Shown here one piece after another: positions 5,689 to 24,792 of a stretch of DNA of 64,000 bases. Source of the DNA: Candidatus Sphingomonas phytovorans (GTDB lineage Bacteria; Pseudomonadota; Alphaproteobacteria; Sphingomonadales; Sphingomonadaceae); the NCBI GenBank assembly GCA_029202385.1, contig CP119314.1, positions 2,110,501 to 2,174,500 of the forward strand, given 5' to 3'. The translations under genes and the position numbers were made by a program. The notes beneath the pieces are model-generated. The model saw only the letters and a list, made by a program, of their open reading frames with translations, was not told where the DNA came from and ran no database searches. How positions within the stretch are numbered: the first letter of the stretch is position 1; each line of letters opens with the position of its first letter.

Positions 5689-7260
5689 ATGAAGTCCAAG
5701 ACGATCCTGTGCTGCGTCGCGTTGGCGGCGGTGACGGCCGGCTGTTCGAAGCCGGGCGGCAACAATTATTCGATGCCCAGCTATGAAGCGAGCGACACCG
5801 CCGAGGCTGGACTGGCCACCCCCGATGCAAGCGGCGAGAAATACAAACCCAATGCCATCTCGCCGGTGCACATGGTCGCCGACGCGCCAGTCTCGACCTT
5901 TGCGGTCGATGTCGACACCGCCGCCTATGCCAATGTCCGCCGCTTCCTCACCCAGGGCCGGAAGCCGCCGGTCGACGCGGTCCGCACCGAGGAGATGATC
6001 AACTATTTCCGCTATGACTATCCCCTGCCCTCCGACCGCGAGGCGCCGTTCAGCGTGACCACCGACGTCGCTCAATCGCCCTGGAACCAGGATACGAAGA
6101 TCCTGCGCATCGGCCTGCGCGGTTATGACCTTCCCTATGCGCGCCGCCCGGCCGCGAACCTGGTCTTCCTGGTCGATGTCTCGGGGTCGATGGACGAGCC
6201 GGACAAGCTGCCCCTGGTCAAATCCGCCCTCTCCACCCTCGCCGACAATATCGGCCGCGAGGATCGGGTCGCGATCGTCGTCTACGCCGGTGCGGCCGGC
6301 GTGGTGCTCGATTCAACCAGCGACCCGTCGGAGATCAAGGCGGCGCTCGACACTCTCAGCGCTGGCGGCTCGACCGCCGGCGGCGAAGGACTCCAGCTCG
6401 CTTATTCGATCGCCCGCGAGCATTTCATCAAGGGCGGCGTCAATCGCATCCTCCTCGCCACCGACGGTGACTTCAATGTCGGCATCACCGACCAGAAGGA
6501 GCTGGAGACGCTGATCGAGCATGAACGCGACGACGGCATCACCCTCACCACGCTCGGCTTCGGCCAGGGCAATCTCAACGACTCGATGATGGAATCGATC
6601 GCCGATCTCGGCAACGGCAACTATGCCTATATCGACAGCGCGATGGAGGCGAAGAAGGTCCTGTCCGAGGAACTCGCCTCGACCCTCTTCACGATCGCCA
6701 AGGACGTGAAGGTCCAGGTCGAGTTCAACCCCGCCTATGTCAGCCAGTACCGCCTGATCGGCTATGAGAACCGCGCGCTGGCCGAGCAGGATTTCGACAA
6801 CGACAAGGTCGACGCGGGCGACATCGGCGCCGGCCACCAGGTCACCGCGATCTACGAGGTCGTGCCCGCCGGAACGAAGGGCTGGATGTCCGACCGCCGC
6901 TACACCGACAACCGCCGCGCCACGCAGGCCCCGGCCAGGCAGGACGGCGAGATGGCGTTCGTCCGCCTGCGCTACAAATTGCCGGACGGCGACACTTCGC
7001 GCCTGATCGAACGCCCGGTCGACGCCCGCCAGCTCGCCACCCATGCCCTGCCACAGGGCGACATGGCCTTTGCCACCGCGGTCGCCGCCTTCGGGCAAAA
7101 ATTGCGCGGCGACACGCGGCTCGGCGACCTCGCCTATGCCGATATCCGTCGCCTCGCCGGCAACGCGGACGGCTATTGGCGACAGGAATTCATCAAGCTC
7201 ACTGAACTCGCCGAGGCGGGGCAGGTGCCTGCGGCGTCGCGCCGGGACTGGATCGGCTAG
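5689..7260 (+). CDS. von Willebrand factor A domain lipoprotein, YfbK-like
   Basis: 523-residue lipoprotein. The signal peptide ends in a lipobox (AVTAGC, Cys19). An N-terminal domain (about 55-135, with [21 protein letters not shown]) precedes a vWA domain whose MIDAS motif DVSGS is at residues 163-167, and a C-terminal DUF3520-like domain follows. This order is that of the YfbK family. The protein should be membrane-anchored in the periplasm and bind a partner through the metal site; the partner is unknown. A ribosome binding site AGGGAGC precedes the start. A strong stem-loop follows the stop at 7296-7331. Confidence 0.88.
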
Positions 7261-7295
7261 GGAGATCCAGTTCAGCCGCGATCGTCGCAGCAGGG

Positions 7296-7331
7296 AGCGG
7301 CCGGGGATGTGTCCAACCCCGGCCGCTCTTT
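7296..7331 (+). terminator. Stem-loop terminator after the vWA lipoprotein gene
   Basis: Perfect 11-bp stem AGCGGCCGGGG / CCCCGGCCGCT around a 10-base loop, followed by CTTTA, 35 bp after the stop codon. Confidence 0.75.
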
Positions 7332-7462
7332 ACGCATTCCTTATGCGGATGCCCCCAGGTCGCCGTCGAAGCTTAACGCCCCCCGCGCCTATCTGAGGGC
7401 CGCGGCACGACAACGCGCCGCGCCATCGCCGGCGGCCCCCTTGCCGGCGCAGGAGCATCCCG

Positions 7463-7684
7463 ATGCAGACCCGTCCCGCCGATCCCGGTGCGACACCCCA
7501 TATCCTCCAGGTCGGGCAGGATCGCCGCGGCCGCTGGATGGTCCAGGAAAATCACGGCCTGATCGAGGGCGTGTTCATCTCCCGCGACGCGGCCCTCCAT
7601 TTCGCCCGCCTCGAACGCCATGCCTTTCCCGGCGCGACGGTGGAACTCGCGAGCCACCCGCTCACCTCGACTCTCGCGGCCTGA
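7463..7684 (+). CDS. Small hypothetical protein (73 residues)
   Basis: Short cytosolic protein with a compact pattern: HILQVGQDRRGRWMVQENHGLIEGVFISRDAALHFARLE. The beta-hairpin then helix layout (VGQDRRGRWMVQE, then FISRDAALHFARLER) resembles small DUF2188-like domains, in which a query strand is followed by a helix, but I cannot assign it firmly. GGAGCATCCCG lies just upstream of the ATG. It is followed after 14 bp by another tiny gene and then a methyltransferase, suggesting a short operon starting after the 7.3 kb terminator. Confidence 0.65.
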   Translation: MQTRPADPGATPHILQVGQDRRGRWMVQENHGLIEGVFISRDAALHFARLERHAFPGATVELASHPLTSTLAA

Positions 7685-7698
7685 CATGGAGAAAGACG

Positions 7699-7857
7699 AT
7701 GTCCCCGGATCTCACCGGCCTGCTGGTCATCGCCCTGATCGGCCTCGCCCTGACGAGCCTCGCTCTGCTCTGCCGTCTCCGCACGACACGCACGCCCAGC
7801 CGGCACCCGGCGCCCCACCCCGACATCACCCTCGGATTCAGGGATCCCTGGCGCTGA
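7699..7857 (+). CDS. Tiny single-pass membrane protein (52 residues)
   Basis: Starts at ATG 7699 with GGAGAAAG upstream. Residues 4-26 (DLTGLLVIALIGLALTSLALLCR) form one transmembrane helix, followed by a basic, Pro/His-rich tail. It sits between the 73-residue gene and the methyltransferase, all on the plus strand with short gaps. No family recognised. Confidence 0.6.
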   Translation: MSPDLTGLLVIALIGLALTSLALLCRLRTTRTPSRHPAPHPDITLGFRDPWR

Positions 7858-7924
7858 GGCCCTTCCGCCGCCCGGTCGATCGCGACCCCGGCAATCATTG
7901 AACTCCCCCTTTCAGGAGCCACCC

Positions 7925-8854
7925 ATGGCAACCCGCCTTGCGTTCGACGACATCACGGACCCGGACCCTCTCCCGGCCAGCGCCGAAATCGCCCTCGCCT
8001 ATGACGCCGCCGGCGCGGACTATCGTGACTATGCCGATGGCGACGCATCGTCCGGTTTCTCCGGCCGCTACGACTTTGCCGATCGCGAACTGTGGCTGCG
8101 GATCGACAAGACCCTGATCGAACTGCGTGCCCAGGGCCGCCACGCCATCCGCATCCTCGATCTCGGCTGCGGCCCGGGCACCTGGCTGCTGCGCACCGCC
8201 GCCCGCGCCCGCGATCTCGGCTTCACCGCGATCGAGGGGCGCGGCGTCGACATCTCCCCGGCGATGATCGCCCTCGCCAACCAGGCCGCCGCCCGCATGA
8301 CCGACCCGAGGATCGGCCTGACCTTCGACGTCGGCGACATAGTGGAGACGCTCGAACAGGAGGGCCGCCATGCCTGCGACATCGCGCTCTGCCTCTACGG
8401 GGTGCTCAACCATGTGGTGCCGTCCAGCTACCCCGCCGTGGCGCGCGCGCTGGCCGAGGTGACCGACGGCGCGCTGATCGCCACGGTCCGCTCGACCGGC
8501 AGCCTCCCGTCGATCTTCATCTCGGGGCTGGAGAAGGCGCGGCATTACCATCAGGACCATGAGCATGACCGGCTCGAGATCGACCTGCTCGATGGTCGCC
8601 ACCTCGAATTCGCCCTCCATCTGTTCAGCGCCCGCGAAGTCCGCGCCCTGTTCGCCCCTCACTGCGCGATCCGCGAACTCGCCGGCATCGACGTCTTCCA
8701 CAGCCGCTTCCGTCCCGAACGCGACTGGAACCCGGCGACCGAGGACCCGGCGCTCGAGGCAAGCCTCGCCCGCCTCGAACATTTCTGCGCCACCGATCCG
8801 ACCTTCATCGATCGCGCCGCGCATATCCTGCTGCTCGCCGGGCCGGCCGAGTAG
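7925..8854 (+). CDS. Class I SAM-dependent methyltransferase
   Basis: 309-residue methyltransferase. SAM-binding motif I is ILDLGCGPGTWLLR (about residues 78-91), motif II contains GRGVDISPAMIALANQ, and the later DIALCLYGVLNHV is the motif IV region. The substrate is not evident. ATG 7925 was chosen because AGGAGCC lies eight bases upstream; an earlier in-frame ATG at 7898 lacks such a site. It is the last gene of the small 7.46-8.85 kb group. Its length and the long C-terminal part after the Rossmann core suggest a small-molecule methyltransferase, but that is inference. Confidence 0.85.
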   Translation: MATRLAFDDITDPDPLPASAEIALAYDAAGADYRDYADGDASSGFSGRYDFADRELWLRIDKTLIELRAQGRHAIRILDLGCGPGTWLLRTAARARDLGFTAIEGRGVDISPAMIALANQAAARMTDPRIGLTFDVGDIVETLEQEGRHACDIALCLYGVLNHVVPSSYPAVARALAEVTDGALIATVRSTGSLPSIFISGLEKARHYHQDHEHDRLEIDLLDGRHLEFALHLFSAREVRALFAPHCAIRELAGIDVFHSRFRPERDWNPATEDPALEASLARLEHFCATDPTFIDRAAHILLLAGPAE

Positions 8855-9142
8855 AATGAAGGCAGCCGCCGTTCCTCCAGGCTGAGGCTGCTGCCTTTGT
8901 CCCATTGCCGCCCCCGACCGTTCGCGTCGCGCGCCCCTCGAGACCCGGTACGCCCTCACCGGCATGCCCGAACCCGCGCGGCGCGAACGGAAAGGGCGTC
9001 CAGCCCCCCGTCGTCACCCCGGAATAAGTCCGGCACGGCGGAAATCATCGAAGCGCCTGAAACGCCCCCGTCCGCCGGAAGCGTTTGACACCCCCCGAAC
9101 CGCCCCCTTAGCCTGCCCCTCAAAACCCCGGGGGAACCATCA

Positions 9143-10561
9143 ATGAAACCACTCGCCACAGCCGCCGCAACCGCGCTCGCCCTGTTCGTCTCCCACGGCG
9201 CCACGGCCCAGACTCAAGCCCCCCGCCCCGACCAGCTCGCCTTCCGCGATCTCTACCGGGAGCTGGTGGAAACCGACACCTCGGTCTCCACCGGAAGCTG
9301 CACCGCCGCCGCGGAGAAACTCGCCGCCCGGCTGAAAGCGGCCGGCTATACCGACGATCAGCTCACCCTGTTCAAGGCCGACGGCTTCCCGCTCGACGGC
9401 GGGCTGGTCGCGCAGCTTCCCGGCACGTCGCCCAAGGCAAAGCCGATGCTGCTCCTCGGCCATCTCGACGTGGTCAATGCCCGCCGCGAGGACTGGCAGC
9501 GCGATCCGTACAAGTTCATCGAGGAGGACGGCTATTTCTACGGCCGCGGCACCTCCGACATGAAGGCGATGGTCGCGACCTGGGTCGACACGCTGATCCG
9601 GCTCAAGCAGCAGGGCTACAAACCGAAACGCACGATCAAGCTCGCCCTCACCTGCGGCGAGGAATCCGGCGCCCGCATGAACGGCGCACAATGGCTCGCG
9701 GAGAACCGGCCCGAGCTGATCGCCGCCGAATTCGCCCTCAACGAAGGCGGCGGCGGCCGTACCGACGGGCACGGCAAGGTCGTCACCCAGGCGATGCAGG
9801 TCGGCGAGAAATCCAACCGCAGCTTCGAAGTGGAGACGACCAACCCCGGCGGCCACAGCTCGATCCCGATCGACGACAACGCCATCTACGAACTCGCCGA
9901 CGCGATCGAGAAGCTGCGCGCCTACACCTTCCCCGTCCGCTTCAACGACACCACCCGCGCCTTCTTCGCCAAGGCGGGCGCGGAGCGGAACGACGAGACC
10001 GGCCGCGCCATGGCGGCGCTCGCCGCCAACCCGGCCGACCGGGCGGCAGAGGCGATCGTCTCGGCCGACCGCACCTTCAACTCGATGCTGCGCACCACCT
10101 GCGTCGCGACGATGCTTGAGGCGGGGCATGCCGTGAACGCGCTGCCGCAGCGCGCCAAGGCGACGGTGAACTGCCGGATCGTACCCGGCGAGGATGGCGA
10201 TACGACCCGCGCCGCGCTGATCGCGGCGATCGGCGATGCGAAGACGAAGGTCACAATGGTCGGCCGCCTCCGCCCGGTCGCCGTCCCGCCGCCGCTCGAC
10301 CCGAAGATCATGGGCCCGGCGGAAAAGCTCGTCGCCCGCTATTTTCCGGGCGTCTCGCTCATCCCCACCATGTCGCCCGGCGCCACCGACGCCACCTATC
10401 TCGCCCCGATCGGCATCCCGACCTATGGCGTGCCCGGAAGCTGGGGCGACCCGGACGGCAATGGGGCCCATGGCCTGAACGAACGGCGCGAAGTGCGCTC
10501 GGTCTATGTCGGACGGGATTTCCTGTTCGACCTGGTAAAGGCCTATGCCAGCGGCAGCTAG
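9143..10561 (+). CDS. Secreted M20 family metallopeptidase
   Basis: 472 residues with a Sec signal peptide ending at ATAQ (about residue 23). Di-zinc peptidase motifs of the M20/M25/M40 family are visible: LLGHLDVV (His and catalytic Asp), YGRGTSDMKA (bridging Asp), TCGEESG (catalytic and metal Glu), and a C-terminal GAHGLNE His ligand. It should act in the periplasm as a carboxypeptidase or dipeptidase. The upstream 8855-9142 gap is C-rich and contains only a partial extragenic palindrome-like sequence near 9010-9035. It converges with the M14 gene, and a strong stem-loop lies between them. Confidence 0.9.
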   Translation: MKPLATAAATALALFVSHGATAQTQAPRPDQLAFRDLYRELVETDTSVSTGSCTAAAEKLAARLKAAGYTDDQLTLFKADGFPLDGGLVAQLPGTSPKAKPMLLLGHLDVVNARREDWQRDPYKFIEEDGYFYGRGTSDMKAMVATWVDTLIRLKQQGYKPKRTIKLALTCGEESGARMNGAQWLAENRPELIAAEFALNEGGGGRTDGHGKVVTQAMQVGEKSNRSFEVETTNPGGHSSIPIDDNAIYELADAIEKLRAYTFPVRFNDTTRAFFAKAGAERNDETGRAMAALAANPADRAAEAIVSADRTFNSMLRTTCVATMLEAGHAVNALPQRAKATVNCRIVPGEDGDTTRAALIAAIGDAKTKVTMVGRLRPVAVPPPLDPKIMGPAEKLVARYFPGVSLIPTMSPGATDATYLAPIGIPTYGVPGSWGDPDGNGAHGLNERREVRSVYVGRDFLFDLVKAYASGS

Positions 10562-20698: not shown

Positions 20699-20833
20699 CT
20701 ATCCAAGATCGCGCAGGGTCACGCTTCCTGCTGCTCTTTCCACCGTGCAGCTCTTCATCTGATCCTGGCTGAAGATCGTCACCACCGGCTTCGACAAGCG
20801 CGCCGCGATCGATAAAGCAGGTGTCGTGGTCAT
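20699..20833 (-). CDS. Candidate small gene encoding a 44-residue protein
   Basis: ATG at 20833 to TAG at 20699 encodes MTTTPALSIAARLSKPVVTI followed by a further 24 residues that include FSQDQMKSCTVERA and end VTLRDLG. The peptide has a natural-protein pattern with one Cys, and AAAGGAGCG lies about seven bases upstream of the ATG. The start codon lies inside the first codons of the divergent DNA glycosylase gene, so the two 5' ends overlap by 8 bp. I do not recognise the family. It is shorter than usual ORF cutoffs and could be missed by automatic annotation. Confidence 0.55.
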   Translation of the reverse strand: MTTTPALSIAARLSKPVVTIFSQDQMKSCTVERAAGSVTLRDLG

Positions 20834-21320
20834 CGCGAAACGCTCCTTTCCGCCCGTGGTGAATCCCGAGGTCCGGCTGCTGATGCTCGGCAGCCTCCCC
20901 GGAGACCGCTCGCTCGCCGCGGGGCGCTATTACGCCCATCCCCAGAACCAGTTCTGGCACCTGATGTCGGGCGTCATCGGCCGCGATCTCGTCGCGCTCG
21001 ACTATGACGACCGCCTCGCCGCCCTGCTCGCCGCCCATGTCGGCCTGTGGGATGTCGTCGCGAGCGCCCGCCGCGACGGCAGCAGCGACGCCGCGATCCG
21101 CGATCCCGTCGGCAACGACCTGCCCGGACTGGTCGCCACCCTGCCCGATCTTCGCGCGATCGGCTTCAACGGCGCGACCTCCTTCCGGCACGGGTCGGCG
21201 CGGTTGGCCGGGGTCACTGACATCGCGCTCGTCGCTCTTCCCTCCAGCAGCCCGCTCCACACCGTGGGGATCGCGGCGAAGCAACCGCTATGGGATCGGC
21301 TTCGCGAGGCCCTGCGCTGA
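20826..21320 (+). CDS. DNA-deoxyinosine/uracil glycosylase family protein
   Basis: 164 residues of the uracil-DNA-glycosylase superfamily, subfamily of hypoxanthine-DNA glycosylases. Motif 1 is LLMLGSLPGDRSL; the substrate pocket segment is YYAHPQNQFWHLM; the leucine-loop motif is LPSSSPLHT. It should remove deaminated bases from DNA. The GTG start at 20826 gives the KRSFPPV N-terminus typical of the family; no alternative start lies between it and the domain. It is divergent from, and overlaps the start of, the small gene on the other strand. Confidence 0.85.
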   Translation: MVIAKRSFPPVVNPEVRLLMLGSLPGDRSLAAGRYYAHPQNQFWHLMSGVIGRDLVALDYDDRLAALLAAHVGLWDVVASARRDGSSDAAIRDPVGNDLPGLVATLPDLRAIGFNGATSFRHGSARLAGVTDIALVALPSSSPLHTVGIAAKQPLWDRLREALR

Positions 21321-21475: not shown

Positions 21476-21772
21476 ATGCCAAACGACGAGGAAACCCGGA
21501 TTCCGACCGGTGACGACATCTTCGAGCATCCCGCCGAGTTCGCTTCGGGCCCGAATCCCCCGGCGCCGGGCACCGCCGTCGGAAAAGGCACCGCCGGCCA
21601 GGATGCCCAGCGCCGCCGCAACGGTGGAGATGGTGGTGGAGGCGGTGGGGGTGGTGACGACGGCGATGGCGATGGGGGCAGCGGCAAGCGCATCTCCGGC
21701 ACTGACGCGCAACGCCGCCACAGCGGTGGCAAGGGCACTGCCGGCCAGGACGCCCAGCGCCGCCGCAATTGA
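21476..21772 (+). CDS. Repeat-containing small peptide, candidate precursor of a modified peptide
   Basis: 98 residues. An acidic N-terminal part (1-35) is followed by three related 14-residue units at 36-49, 70-83 and 85-98, consensus GKxxxGxDAQRRxx, separated by a Gly/Asp-rich linker (50-69). Units 1 and 3 are identical in protein but differ at five codons by synonymous changes only, which indicates selection on the peptide. The start has GGGGAG seven bases upstream. A gene for an asparagine-synthetase-like enzyme begins 37 bp after the stop. A leader-plus-repeated-core precursor is one reading; a disordered stress protein of KGG/Con-10 type is the main alternative. Confidence 0.65.
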   Translation: MPNDEETRIPTGDDIFEHPAEFASGPNPPAPGTAVGKGTAGQDAQRRRNGGDGGGGGGGGDDGDGDGGSGKRISGTDAQRRHSGGKGTAGQDAQRRRN

Positions 21773-21809
21773 CCTGCCCCCCGGCCTGAACACCCCGGTC
21801 TGAACATCG

Positions 21810-23438
21810 ATGCTTTCCCTGCATCTGCTGGCGGGCGATGCCGGGCTCGACTGGCACCGCACGGCGACCGGCATCGCCCGCGGGTCGAGCCAGGTCGATC
21901 CCTATCGCCACGATGCCCTGGAGGAGGTCATCGCCGTCAACGGCGAGCGGCTGCTCGTCTGCGTGCGGGAACGATGCGCCGGACTGATCGGGCCTGAGAT
22001 CGACATCCTCGCCGGGTCGGCGTCGCCAGCCCCGATCGACGCTGAACGGTTCGACCGGCTGGTCGGCAGCCTGCGCGCCTGGCCGCTGCAATGGCACCTG
22101 CTGATCGTCGATCGCGATACGGCCCGGCTTGAGGCGGGCCATTGGGGCACAGCGCCGGTTTTTCTCGTCGCCCGGCCCGGCGGCGAGCTGCGGGGGCATT
22201 GGGATGCTGACCGGCTGTTGCCCGGCCTGGAGCGCACCAGTCTCGATCCGGCCCGCGCCGCGCGCTGGATCGCCGAATATGACGCGCCCTATGCCCGACG
22301 GACCCTGTTCCGCGATCTGATGCTGCTCACCGAACGGGCCGTCGCGACGTGGCGCCGGGCTCCGGGCGGGGATCACGGACTGGACATCGCCTACCCTGCT
22401 CCATGGCCGCGGCCGGTCCCCGGCACCCTCCGCCCGGAGGCCGACCCGCTCGACGCATTCGAGAACATCCTGCGCTCCTCGATGCGTCGATGGACTCGTC
22501 TCGCGGGGGAAACGCTTGGCGCGGAGTTGAGCGGCGGCCTCGATTCCGGCCTTGTCGCGGCGATCGCGTCCCGGGAATCGGCGAGCCCCTTGGCAAGCTA
22601 CGGACTCGCCATCGCCGGGATGGCGGACGCCGTCGCGGATCAACGCGCGCGCCGGGCGGATCTGATCGCGGCGTTCGGCCTGCGCGACACGGAAATCCCG
22701 ATGGAGGATTTCCTGCCGCTTGCGCCCGGCAGTTGCCGGCTCGACGGCAACGCGCCGGTCCTCCCATGGGAGGAGGGTTATTACGAGGCGATGGATCATC
22801 TGCTGGAGCGGGCCTATGCGGCGGGCACGCGGGTGATGCTGACTGGCTTCGGCGGAGACGAGCTTTGCGGCCTTCGCCCGTCCGAACAACGCGCGCTTGG
22901 CCTCGCGGCGGAACCGGCCTGGTCCCTCTCGCCGCCGGAAGGTCCCGCCTTTCTCACTCCGATGGCAAGCGCTACCCTGGCGACGTCGCCGGACCAGCCG
23001 CCCCGCGCAGCGAGCTGCGATTCATCGGTCGAGGTCGCCGCGTTCAGCGCGGCGCGCTATCTGTGGCATGGCATCTGGCCGGTTCATCCGTTGTGCACGC
23101 CGGAACTTGTCCATTTCTGCGCGCGCCTCCCCGCCGCCTGGCGCGCCGACCGCACCATCGAACGCGCCCTGCTCGCGCGGCTCGGCGCGACGCCGCGGGT
23201 GACTAAGCCGGCCTTTCGGGACGATCTCTCCCCGGCGCTCGTGCGCGGCATGCGTTTCAGTGCCCGGCCACTGCTCGACCGCCTGTTCGCTCAGTCGAAC
23301 CTTGCCCGACAGGGCATCGTCGATGCTGCCCGGCTGCGCCGCGATTATGCCGAATGGTGCGAGCGCGACGACACTGATGGAGCCGAACGTTATTACGCCG
23401 TCGCGATCCTGGAACTGTGCCTCGCCAGGATGCGCTGA
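21810..23438 (+). CDS. Asparagine-synthetase-like amide-forming enzyme
   Basis: 542 residues. The C-terminal half has the ATP-pyrophosphatase P-loop SGGLDS (241-246) and the later GFGGDE (346-351), as in asparagine synthetase and lasso-peptide macrolactam synthetases. The N-terminal domain does not start with Met-Cys, so the Ntn glutaminase nucleophile of true asparagine synthetase B is absent. The enzyme therefore probably adenylates a carboxylate and joins it to an amine other than glutamine-derived ammonia. The small repeat peptide encoded immediately upstream is the obvious candidate substrate (inference). No lasso B1/B2 leader protease is present nearby. Confidence 0.8.
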   Translation: MLSLHLLAGDAGLDWHRTATGIARGSSQVDPYRHDALEEVIAVNGERLLVCVRERCAGLIGPEIDILAGSASPAPIDAERFDRLVGSLRAWPLQWHLLIVDRDTARLEAGHWGTAPVFLVARPGGELRGHWDADRLLPGLERTSLDPARAARWIAEYDAPYARRTLFRDLMLLTERAVATWRRAPGGDHGLDIAYPAPWPRPVPGTLRPEADPLDAFENILRSSMRRWTRLAGETLGAELSGGLDSGLVAAIASRESASPLASYGLAIAGMADAVADQRARRADLIAAFGLRDTEIPMEDFLPLAPGSCRLDGNAPVLPWEEGYYEAMDHLLERAYAAGTRVMLTGFGGDELCGLRPSEQRALGLAAEPAWSLSPPEGPAFLTPMASATLATSPDQPPRAASCDSSVEVAAFSAARYLWHGIWPVHPLCTPELVHFCARLPAAWRADRTIERALLARLGATPRVTKPAFRDDLSPALVRGMRFSARPLLDRLFAQSNLARQGIVDAARLRRDYAEWCERDDTDGAERYYAVAILELCLARMR

Positions 23439-23490: not shown

Positions 23491-24792
23491 GTGCCGGACG
23501 ACTCGCCCCTCCTGCCCCCGCGCCCGCTGCGCTGGCTGTTCCTCGACCTGAACAGCTATTTCGCGAGCGTCGAGCAGCAGCTCCAGCCCGAATTGCGCGG
23601 CAAGCCGGTCCTCGTCGCGCCCGTGCACAGCGACACCACCGTCGCCATCGCCGCCTCGGTCGAGGCCAAGCGCTACGGCATCTCGACCGGCACGCCCGTG
23701 TGGGAGGCGAAGCGCCTGTGCCGGGACCTGATCGTCACGCCCGCCCGCCACGAAAAATATGTCGAGTTCCACGACGCCATCATCGAGGAGATTTGGAAGC
23801 ACATTCCCGTCACCCGGGTCTGCTCGATCGACGAGGTCGCCTGCCGCCTGCTCGACAACGAGAACTCGGTCGAGGCGGCGGTCGCGCTCGCCCGGCGGAT
23901 CAAGGCCGGCATCCGCGCCAATGTCGGCGGGTGCCTCACCAGTTCGGTCGGCATCGCGCCCAATTGCCTGCTGGCCAAGCTCGCCTCGGACATGATGAAA
24001 CCCGACGGCCTGGTCGTAATGACCGCGGACCAGCTTCCCCACCGCCTGTTCGACATGCCGCTCCGCGACATCGCCGGCATCGGCGCGAAGATGGAACGGC
24101 GCCTGGCGCGGGACGGCATCAACGACATCCGCCAGCTGTGCGAGCGCCGTCCGCGCGATGCCGGCACTGCCTGGGGCGGTACCAATGGCGACCGGCTCTG
24201 GTATCTGCTCCACGGCGTCGACCTGCCGGAAAAGCCGACTCAAAGCCGCTCGATCGGCCACAGCCACGTCCTGTCGCCCGGCAAGCGCGGGGTCGAGCCG
24301 GTCCGCCTCACCGCGCGCCGCCTCGCGCTCAAGGCGGCGAGCCGGCTGCGGCGCAAATCCTATCGCAGCCGCCTGCTCGTCCTCCACGCCCGGTTCGAGG
24401 ACGACAAGTCGACCTGGCGCGCCAGCATCCGCCTGCCCGCCACGCAGGACAGCTTCGCGGTGCTCGCCGGGCTCGATGCGCTGTATCCCCGGCTCGTCGC
24501 GGTCGGGCGACGGCGCCCCGGCGACTTCCAGATCCGCATGGTCGGCGTCACCCTGGCCGAGATCGAGCCGGTGGCCGGGGAACAGGATTCGCTGTTCGCC
24601 CTGCTCGATCCGGACGACCCGCTGGCGCGCGAGACTCGCACCCTGTCGCTCAGCCGCGCAATGGACCGGATCAACGAACGATTCGGTCGCAACGCGGTCA
24701 GTGTGGGGCCGCTGCACGGGGGCAGGCTCGACCGGGTCGGCACGAAGATCGCCTTTGGAAGAATCCCGGAAATGAGCGAGTTTCACGAATAG
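23491..24792 (+). CDS. Y-family DNA polymerase (DinB/UmuC-like)
   Basis: 433 residues. Catalytic palm motifs are visible: LFLDLNSYFASVEQQ (metal Asp plus the steric-gate region) and CSIDEVACRL (Asp-Glu pair). The thumb helix-hairpin-helix region IAGIGAKMERRL and the little-finger domain (SIGHSHVL onward) complete the Y-family order. It should perform error-prone translesion synthesis. The GTG start at 23491 was chosen because the domain begins about 15 residues later; the open frame extends upstream into the preceding gene. It is not part of an imuA-imuB-dnaE2 cassette. Confidence 0.88.
   Translation: MPDDSPLLPPRPLRWLFLDLNSYFASVEQQLQPELRGKPVLVAPVHSDTTVAIAASVEAKRYGISTGTPVWEAKRLCRDLIVTPARHEKYVEFHDAIIEEIWKHIPVTRVCSIDEVACRLLDNENSVEAAVALARRIKAGIRANVGGCLTSSVGIAPNCLLAKLASDMMKPDGLVVMTADQLPHRLFDMPLRDIAGIGAKMERRLARDGINDIRQLCERRPRDAGTAWGGTNGDRLWYLLHGVDLPEKPTQSRSIGHSHVLSPGKRGVEPVRLTARRLALKAASRLRRKSYRSRLLVLHARFEDDKSTWRASIRLPATQDSFAVLAGLDALYPRLVAVGRRRPGDFQIRMVGVTLAEIEPVAGEQDSLFALLDPDDPLARETRTLSLSRAMDRINERFGRNAVSVGPLHGGRLDRVGTKIAFGRIPEMSEFHE

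Follow-up and report, generated by a model that had tools for sequence, protein, structure and literature searches.

A repeat peptide and an asparagine-synthetase-fold enzyme form a conserved two-gene module with a predicted multicore Lys-Asp lactam product

In the window analysed here (i.e. the whole stretch of 64,000 nucleotides from contig CP119314.1 of Candidatus Sphingomonas phytovorans), a gene for a short repeat peptide lies directly ahead of a gene for an enzyme of the asparagine synthetase fold, and the two constitute a genuine two-gene module. The conserved residues of the repeats point to a small Lys-Asp ring in each copy, closed by the enzyme. Probably, the enzyme is an ATP-dependent cyclase that joins the Lys side chain of each core to the Asp side chain of that same core, in an intramolecular reaction, which would make the product a multicore lactam RiPP.

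Table 1. Features of the peptide-enzyme pair and its flanks, in positions of the window.
Feature	Position	Strand	Remark
Precursor peptide gene, 98 aa, three cores	21476..21772	+	Relatives 5' of the enzyme in 5/5 other loci with context
Leader motif IPTGDDIF, probable enzyme recognition motif (putative role)	21500..21523	+	Similar motif in relatives by eye
Core unit 1, GKGTAGQDAQRRRN	21581..21622	+	Lys37 codon 21584-21586, Asp43 codon 21602-21604
Gly/Asp-rich spacer, cores 1 to 2	21623..21682	+	From translation
Core unit 2, GKRISGTDAQRRHS	21683..21724	+	Lys71 codon 21686-21688, Asp77 codon 21704-21706
Core unit 3, GKGTAGQDAQRRRN	21728..21769	+	Lys86 codon 21731-21733, Asp92 codon 21749-21751
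Asparagine-synthetase-fold enzyme (PF00733), 542 aa, proposed Lys-Asp lactam synthetase	21810..23438	+	
Flanking DNA-deoxyinosine glycosylase, outside the system	20826..21320	+	TIGR04274, 136.2 bits vs cut-off 80
Flanking DinB-type polymerase, outside the system	23491..24792	+	PF00817

A preliminary description of this DNA had reported an open reading frame of 98 residues with three repeat units, 37 bp ahead of the enzyme reading frame, and both were recovered (Table 1). Units 1 and 3 (GKGTAGQDAQRRRN) do encode the same amino acids with five codon differences, all of them synonymous, and the N-terminal part is indeed acidic, with 7 acidic residues versus 1 basic residue among the 36 ahead of core 1. 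Compared with its counterpart in Sphingomonas sp. QA11, the window peptide differs by three synonymous and five amino-acid-changing codons; the changed residues (3, 6, 15, 25 and 70) all lie outside the K...R cores, residue 15 being part of the leader motif and residue 70 being the Gly that opened the second unit as originally delimited. With these codon counts, a dN/dS ratio taken over the entire peptide is uninformative. The flanking glycosylase and DinB genes explain nothing about the pair.

The enzyme search returned 51 proteins from scattered sources, with five further loci for which the context was available, namely those of Sphingomonas sp. QA11 (98% enzyme identity), two Acidobacteriaceae MAGs (54%), Nocardia vaccinii (53%) and an uncultured Sphingomonas (53%). 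In 6/6 loci (the window included) the reading frame directly 5' of the enzyme has three to six copies of K-x3-G-x-D-x-Q-x-R, and since the same core recurs at this place every time, the pattern is more than chance. The co-occurrence of such peptides with enzyme homologues, proposed earlier as a check, was therefore found, but not in the frame of the sphingomonads in which it had been cast: the enzyme is rare there (1/397 genomes of the window's family) and is present in other phyla too, including 2/200 genomes of the order of L002, both known beforehand. A profile of the peptide matches one place alone in 6/6 genomes, beside the enzyme (the two matches in G401 fall within a single reading frame), and it matched 1/269 genomes of the window's family and 1/256 genomes of Nocardia's class, each time the genome known to hold the enzyme. 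The genome surveys, those for the enzyme as well as those for the peptide, scored a small number of candidates in each genome (3, 7 or 17-18). When reading frames of at least 90 aa were compared between five of the six loci (the window and L002-L005, the near-identical L002 and L004 not being counted against each other), those in common were the peptide, the enzyme and the reading frames opposite them on the other strand, and no protease or exporter gene was common to these loci. Equal-sized longest contigs in three pairs of enzyme and precursor entries (11,216 for P0059/P0007, 318,981 for P0064/P0002 and 4,141 for P0054/P0029) suggest, though they do not prove, linkage within each of these pairs as well.

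No relative was found among viral contigs, nor were there matches in phage records searched with the enzyme or in plasmid records searched with the L004 precursor, and PADLOC gave no result. The site was also considered as an insertion: among 22 other glycosylase-bearing genomes of the family, one (L074) has a DinB gene beside the glycosylase, within a 1.5 kb flank. There, the two genes adjoin without the cassette, and with this single case among 22, gain of the cassette is indistinguishable from loss.

Precursor searches added 22 members, which brings the total to 28 once the window and the other five loci are counted. Cores were located by G-x-D-x-Q, a pattern that is blind to lysine, and in the resulting 79 cores (36 distinct 13-mers) Lys stands at D-6 in 79/79, with core positions 2, 3, 4, 6, 8 and 10 variable. 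Starting from K-x3-G instead, 91 places were obtained with Asp at +6 in 82, including two leader stretches (P0066 and P0067) and one P0074 core without Gln. Asp is missing from the other nine: the P0059 place is a truncated core, that in P0069 is a true core read in a shifted position, and the remaining seven fall within leaders, linkers or folded domains. Such a layout, in which an amine and a carboxylate stand a constant number of residues apart while the sequence separating them is free, is what a side-chain lactam requires. The unit had been described as GKxxxGxDAQRRxx, of which the K...G-x-D core stands but the leading Gly does not, as the residue ahead of the core Lys is K in 31, G in 19, A in 9, N in 7, Q in 4, P in 4, R in 3 and S in 2 of the 79 cores; the corrected conserved core is K-x3-G-x-D-x-Q-x-R. 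Ahead of the first core, most of the 28 precursors have a motif like (I/V)PTGD(D/E)xF (a loose likeness, judged by eye), which we infer to be the enzyme's handle. With a leader, a conserved core and a linked candidate modifying enzyme, the peptide has the make-up of a RiPP precursor.

The Lys-Asp spacing extends to divergent relatives. Profile searches gave distant enzymes in 12/394 genomes of Nocardia's class (the known Nocardia included) and in 2/385 genomes of the window's class (counting that of the window itself), while a plasmid search gave 31 records, of which 8 (H1-H6, H8 and H9) were examined. This resulted in 22 distant loci, from Actinobacteria, Rhizobium, Mesorhizobium, Xanthomonas and others, with enzymes 24-45% identical to the nearest aligned relative. 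Upstream reading frames were taken as those of 30-150 aa whose stop falls in the interval from -250 to +60 nt around the expected start of the enzyme, a rule that 20/22 loci satisfy whatever the content of the frame, which makes it a weak criterion by itself. An upstream frame with K(i)-D(i+6) is found in 17/22 loci, whereas 300 shuffles average 4.5 and never exceed 10; as the peptides are kin within groups, the shuffles overstate independence, and with one peptide per group (grouped by eye) the spacing is found in 8/10. The stretches from Lys to Asp are unlike each other (KSSGSSD, KPAGTED, KGGKPGD, KRRLPGD, KPYLGDD and KMPGGGD). The five loci that miss i+6 are L031 (where an annotated KGGKPGD peptide lies just past 250 nt), L042 (upstream masked), L046 (no fitting frame), L048 (K..E at i+6) and L049 (K..D at i+7).

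Offsets 2-5 and 7-11 occur in 2 to 9 of the 22 loci, for example offset 3 in 9/22 (shuffled mean 4.8, maximum 10) and offset 7 in 8/22 (mean 4.3, maximum 10). Offset 12 is enriched too (11/22 versus a shuffled maximum of 9), because several actinobacterial peptides carry a second constant Asp at i+12; in L036-L038, L044, L045 and similar loci it is kept beside the Asp at i+6, and in these peptides either Asp could be the partner of the Lys. L049 (G000:C1:240707-242170, minus strand) is a second, distant enzyme in the window's own genome, 35% identical over residues 22-481 and preceded by a 51-aa reading frame with K-T-P-Y-E-P-Y-D. Downstream of the enzyme lies an ABC-type gene in L030 and L034 (Streptomyces plasmids) and a phosphotransferase gene in L051 and L052 (Mesorhizobium plasmids), with export or tailoring as possible functions.

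The enzyme itself has PF00733 as its sole Pfam match at E 0.1 and carries the SGGLDS and GFGGDE motifs that had been pointed out before. This domain, the SGGxDS motif and the two-domain fold place it in the asparagine synthetase superfamily, the fold being that of an AlphaFold2 model (pLDDT 93.1), to which the closest solved folds are TsnB9, carbapenam synthetase, AsnB and beta-lactam synthetase. Searching PDB sequences with the A4 profile found nothing, and the enzyme touches six NCBIfam models but falls far short of every cut-off (e.g. 34.4 versus 267.1 bits for asparagine synthase). The N-terminal glutaminase Cys is absent, as the preliminary description had it: residue 2, which is Cys in glutamine-dependent asparagine synthetase B, is Leu in the window enzyme and Cys in 0/41 aligned sequences (Leu 33, Phe 4, Ile 3, gap 1). 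Residue 347 is Phe in 37/41 rows, a position which in the HMMER alignment corresponds to the Tyr of TGYGAD in beta-lactam synthetase and to the Glu of SGEAADE in TsnB9. Residue 419 is Trp in the window enzyme and Arg in 38/41 rows as well as in the 98%-identical QA11 enzyme, and with this Trp the window's copy might be impaired.

The earlier proposal was that the adjacent enzyme couples the Asp of each unit to an amine, and the comparative tests (i.e. the linkage in 6/6 loci and the confinement of the peptide profile to those places) favour such a reaction. To this proposal we add that the amine is probably the core's own Lys, fixed at D-6. In the mechanism we propose, the multicore precursor would consist of a short leader with IPTGDDIF followed by three cores, and the enzyme, which is predicted to have the build of beta-lactam synthetase and AsnB minus the glutaminase cysteine, would first bind this leader. 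It would then use ATP (motif SGGLDS) to adenylate the Asp side chain of one core, which would come under attack from the side-chain amine of the Lys six residues earlier in the same core. Each K-x3-G-x-D would in this way become a 7-residue side-chain lactam, with the residues past the Asp staying outside the ring, and the predicted mass loss would be 18 Da per core and 54 Da overall. Against this reading speak the second Asp at i+12 in some relatives, the kinship among the peptides behind the statistics, the Trp at residue 419 of the window enzyme and the finding that no protease or exporter gene is common to the five loci. Beta-lactam and carbapenam synthetases, which form an intramolecular amide after adenylation of small-molecule substrates, are alike in being among the closest solved folds to the model; unlike in beta-lactam synthetase, the Tyr of TGYGAD is mostly Phe here.

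The core Asp could also be changed without ring formation, through amidation to Asn (or on to the nitrile) or coupling to a free amine, with the Lys serving for recognition only, which we consider unlikely. The modelled fold, common to AsnB and the hydroxyamidotransferase TsnB9, would suit such a reaction, and AS-like enzymes acting on ribosomal peptides are reported in a 2026 survey (PMC13060819), i.e. TsrC and ScdTA for C-terminal amidation and PesC for a nitrile, one such enzyme taking ammonia in place of glutamine. TsrC, ScdTA and PesC act on a C-terminal carboxylate; the constant residue in the present cores is internal, an Asp accompanied by a fixed Lys. Recognition alone need not pin the Lys at D-6 amid differing intervening residues. 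The absence of the glutaminase Cys and the replacement of the Glu of TsnB9 by Phe argue against amidation as well.

In some of the related precursors the repeat tail sits on an aegerolysin-like or aerolysin-like domain (i.e. of pore-forming type), and in some relatives the tail on such a folded domain is predicted to be disordered. Together with the presence of as many as six cores per chain, this would fit a bond between Lys and Asp of different cores or molecules, giving cross-linked repeats or a tether to another protein. Such a link is nevertheless quite improbable, given that distant one-core peptides retain K(i)-D(i+6), which is needless for a bond between chains.

At locus L005 three genes lie in a row (6095-9605), coding for an aerolysin-like protein without a tail, an aegerolysin-like protein with a six-core tail and the enzyme, an arrangement that resembles binary pore-forming pairs. 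Beside this module (L005:9764-17547, minus strand) are three reading frames of ~235-415 aa that look alike by eye and one of 1811 aa; five L005 neighbours gave no match to Pfam. Eight precursors with long N-terminal parts likewise had no real Pfam match (two weak ones were below the cut-off), and P0069 shows a third kind of N-terminal part, of ~100 aa, ahead of two cores.

Lasso peptides are a known case of an asparagine-synthetase-family enzyme (the macrolactam synthetases of NF033535) working on a ribosomal peptide, and their lactam is likewise made to an Asp or Glu side chain, with a ring size similar to the one proposed here. In a lasso-type reaction, a protease would cleave on the N-terminal side of the Gly in GKGTAGQD, after which the enzyme would link this newly exposed Gly to Asp8; all three window units read G-K-x-x-x-G-x-D, and the Gly1-Asp8 spacing fits known lasso ring sizes. 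In lasso cores the opening residue is conserved (mostly Gly) and precedes the Asp or Glu by 6-8 residues, whereas the residue ahead of the core Lys varies here and is Gly in a minority of cores. For NF033535 the enzyme reaches 35.4 bits where the cut-off is 525, and a scan of 8 neighbouring window proteins, two of which gave no Pfam hit, found no B1/B2-type domain, nor was there an extra gene common to five loci, which agrees with the earlier remark that this is not a standard lasso cluster. A lasso-type product is accordingly very improbable, and the module we propose differs from lasso systems in its nucleophile (an internal Lys side chain instead of a new N-terminus) and in having several cores per precursor. 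That the peptide is an unmodified stress repeat of the KGG/Con-10 kind beside an unrelated enzyme by accident, as its basic, Gly-rich repeats by eye might suggest, is hardly credible, since the check for such a match gave none (the window peptide has no Pfam family at E 0.1, and neither it nor its relatives have an NCBIfam match above cut-off) and the peptide is linked to the enzyme in 6/6 loci and never found without it in the sampled genomes.

With an intramolecular Lys-Asp lactam as the preferred reading, a parallel in terms of product is formed by the graspetides. Their ligases are ATP-grasp enzymes and plesiocin is a multicore example, whereas the linked enzyme here is PF00733, and no ATP-grasp ligase was found among the 8 neighbouring window proteins or as a gene common to the five loci. 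According to PMC13097080, graspetides are ribosomal peptides with side-chain macrolactams or macrolactones, and a side-chain lactam is likewise predicted here. The 2026 survey (PMC13060819) counts ~3,800 RiPP-linked PF00733 enzymes, of which ~3,500 are lasso-related, and leaves ~300 non-lasso RiPP-linked AS-like enzymes uncharacterised.

A description of the module was not found in open-licence PMC papers, covered mostly through titles and the starts of abstracts, which does not prove its absence from print. It therefore concerns a putative RiPP system with an asparagine-synthetase-fold cyclase, of which the substrate layout and the predicted bond were not found described in that literature. 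Going further, we give about even weight to the idea of a new RiPP class, spread over Proteobacteria, Acidobacteria and Actinobacteria, in which AS-fold enzymes staple Lys(i) to Asp(i+6), with one branch having multicore tails, some of them on pore-forming-type (aegerolysin-like or aerolysin-like) proteins, so that the enzyme's work would extend beyond the cyclisation of small peptides to the modification of protein tails. The family offers a specific and cheap test, as two genes suffice for it and both the mass change (18 Da lost per core) and the bond (Lys to Asp) are predicted. Its association with aegerolysin-like and aerolysin-like proteins raises the question of what role a lactam-rich tail would have on a membrane-binding protein. 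If the proposed reaction is true, a second fold, besides ATP-grasp, would exist for making side-chain lactams in multicore peptides, and it would provide a compact staple that might be usable on protein tails.
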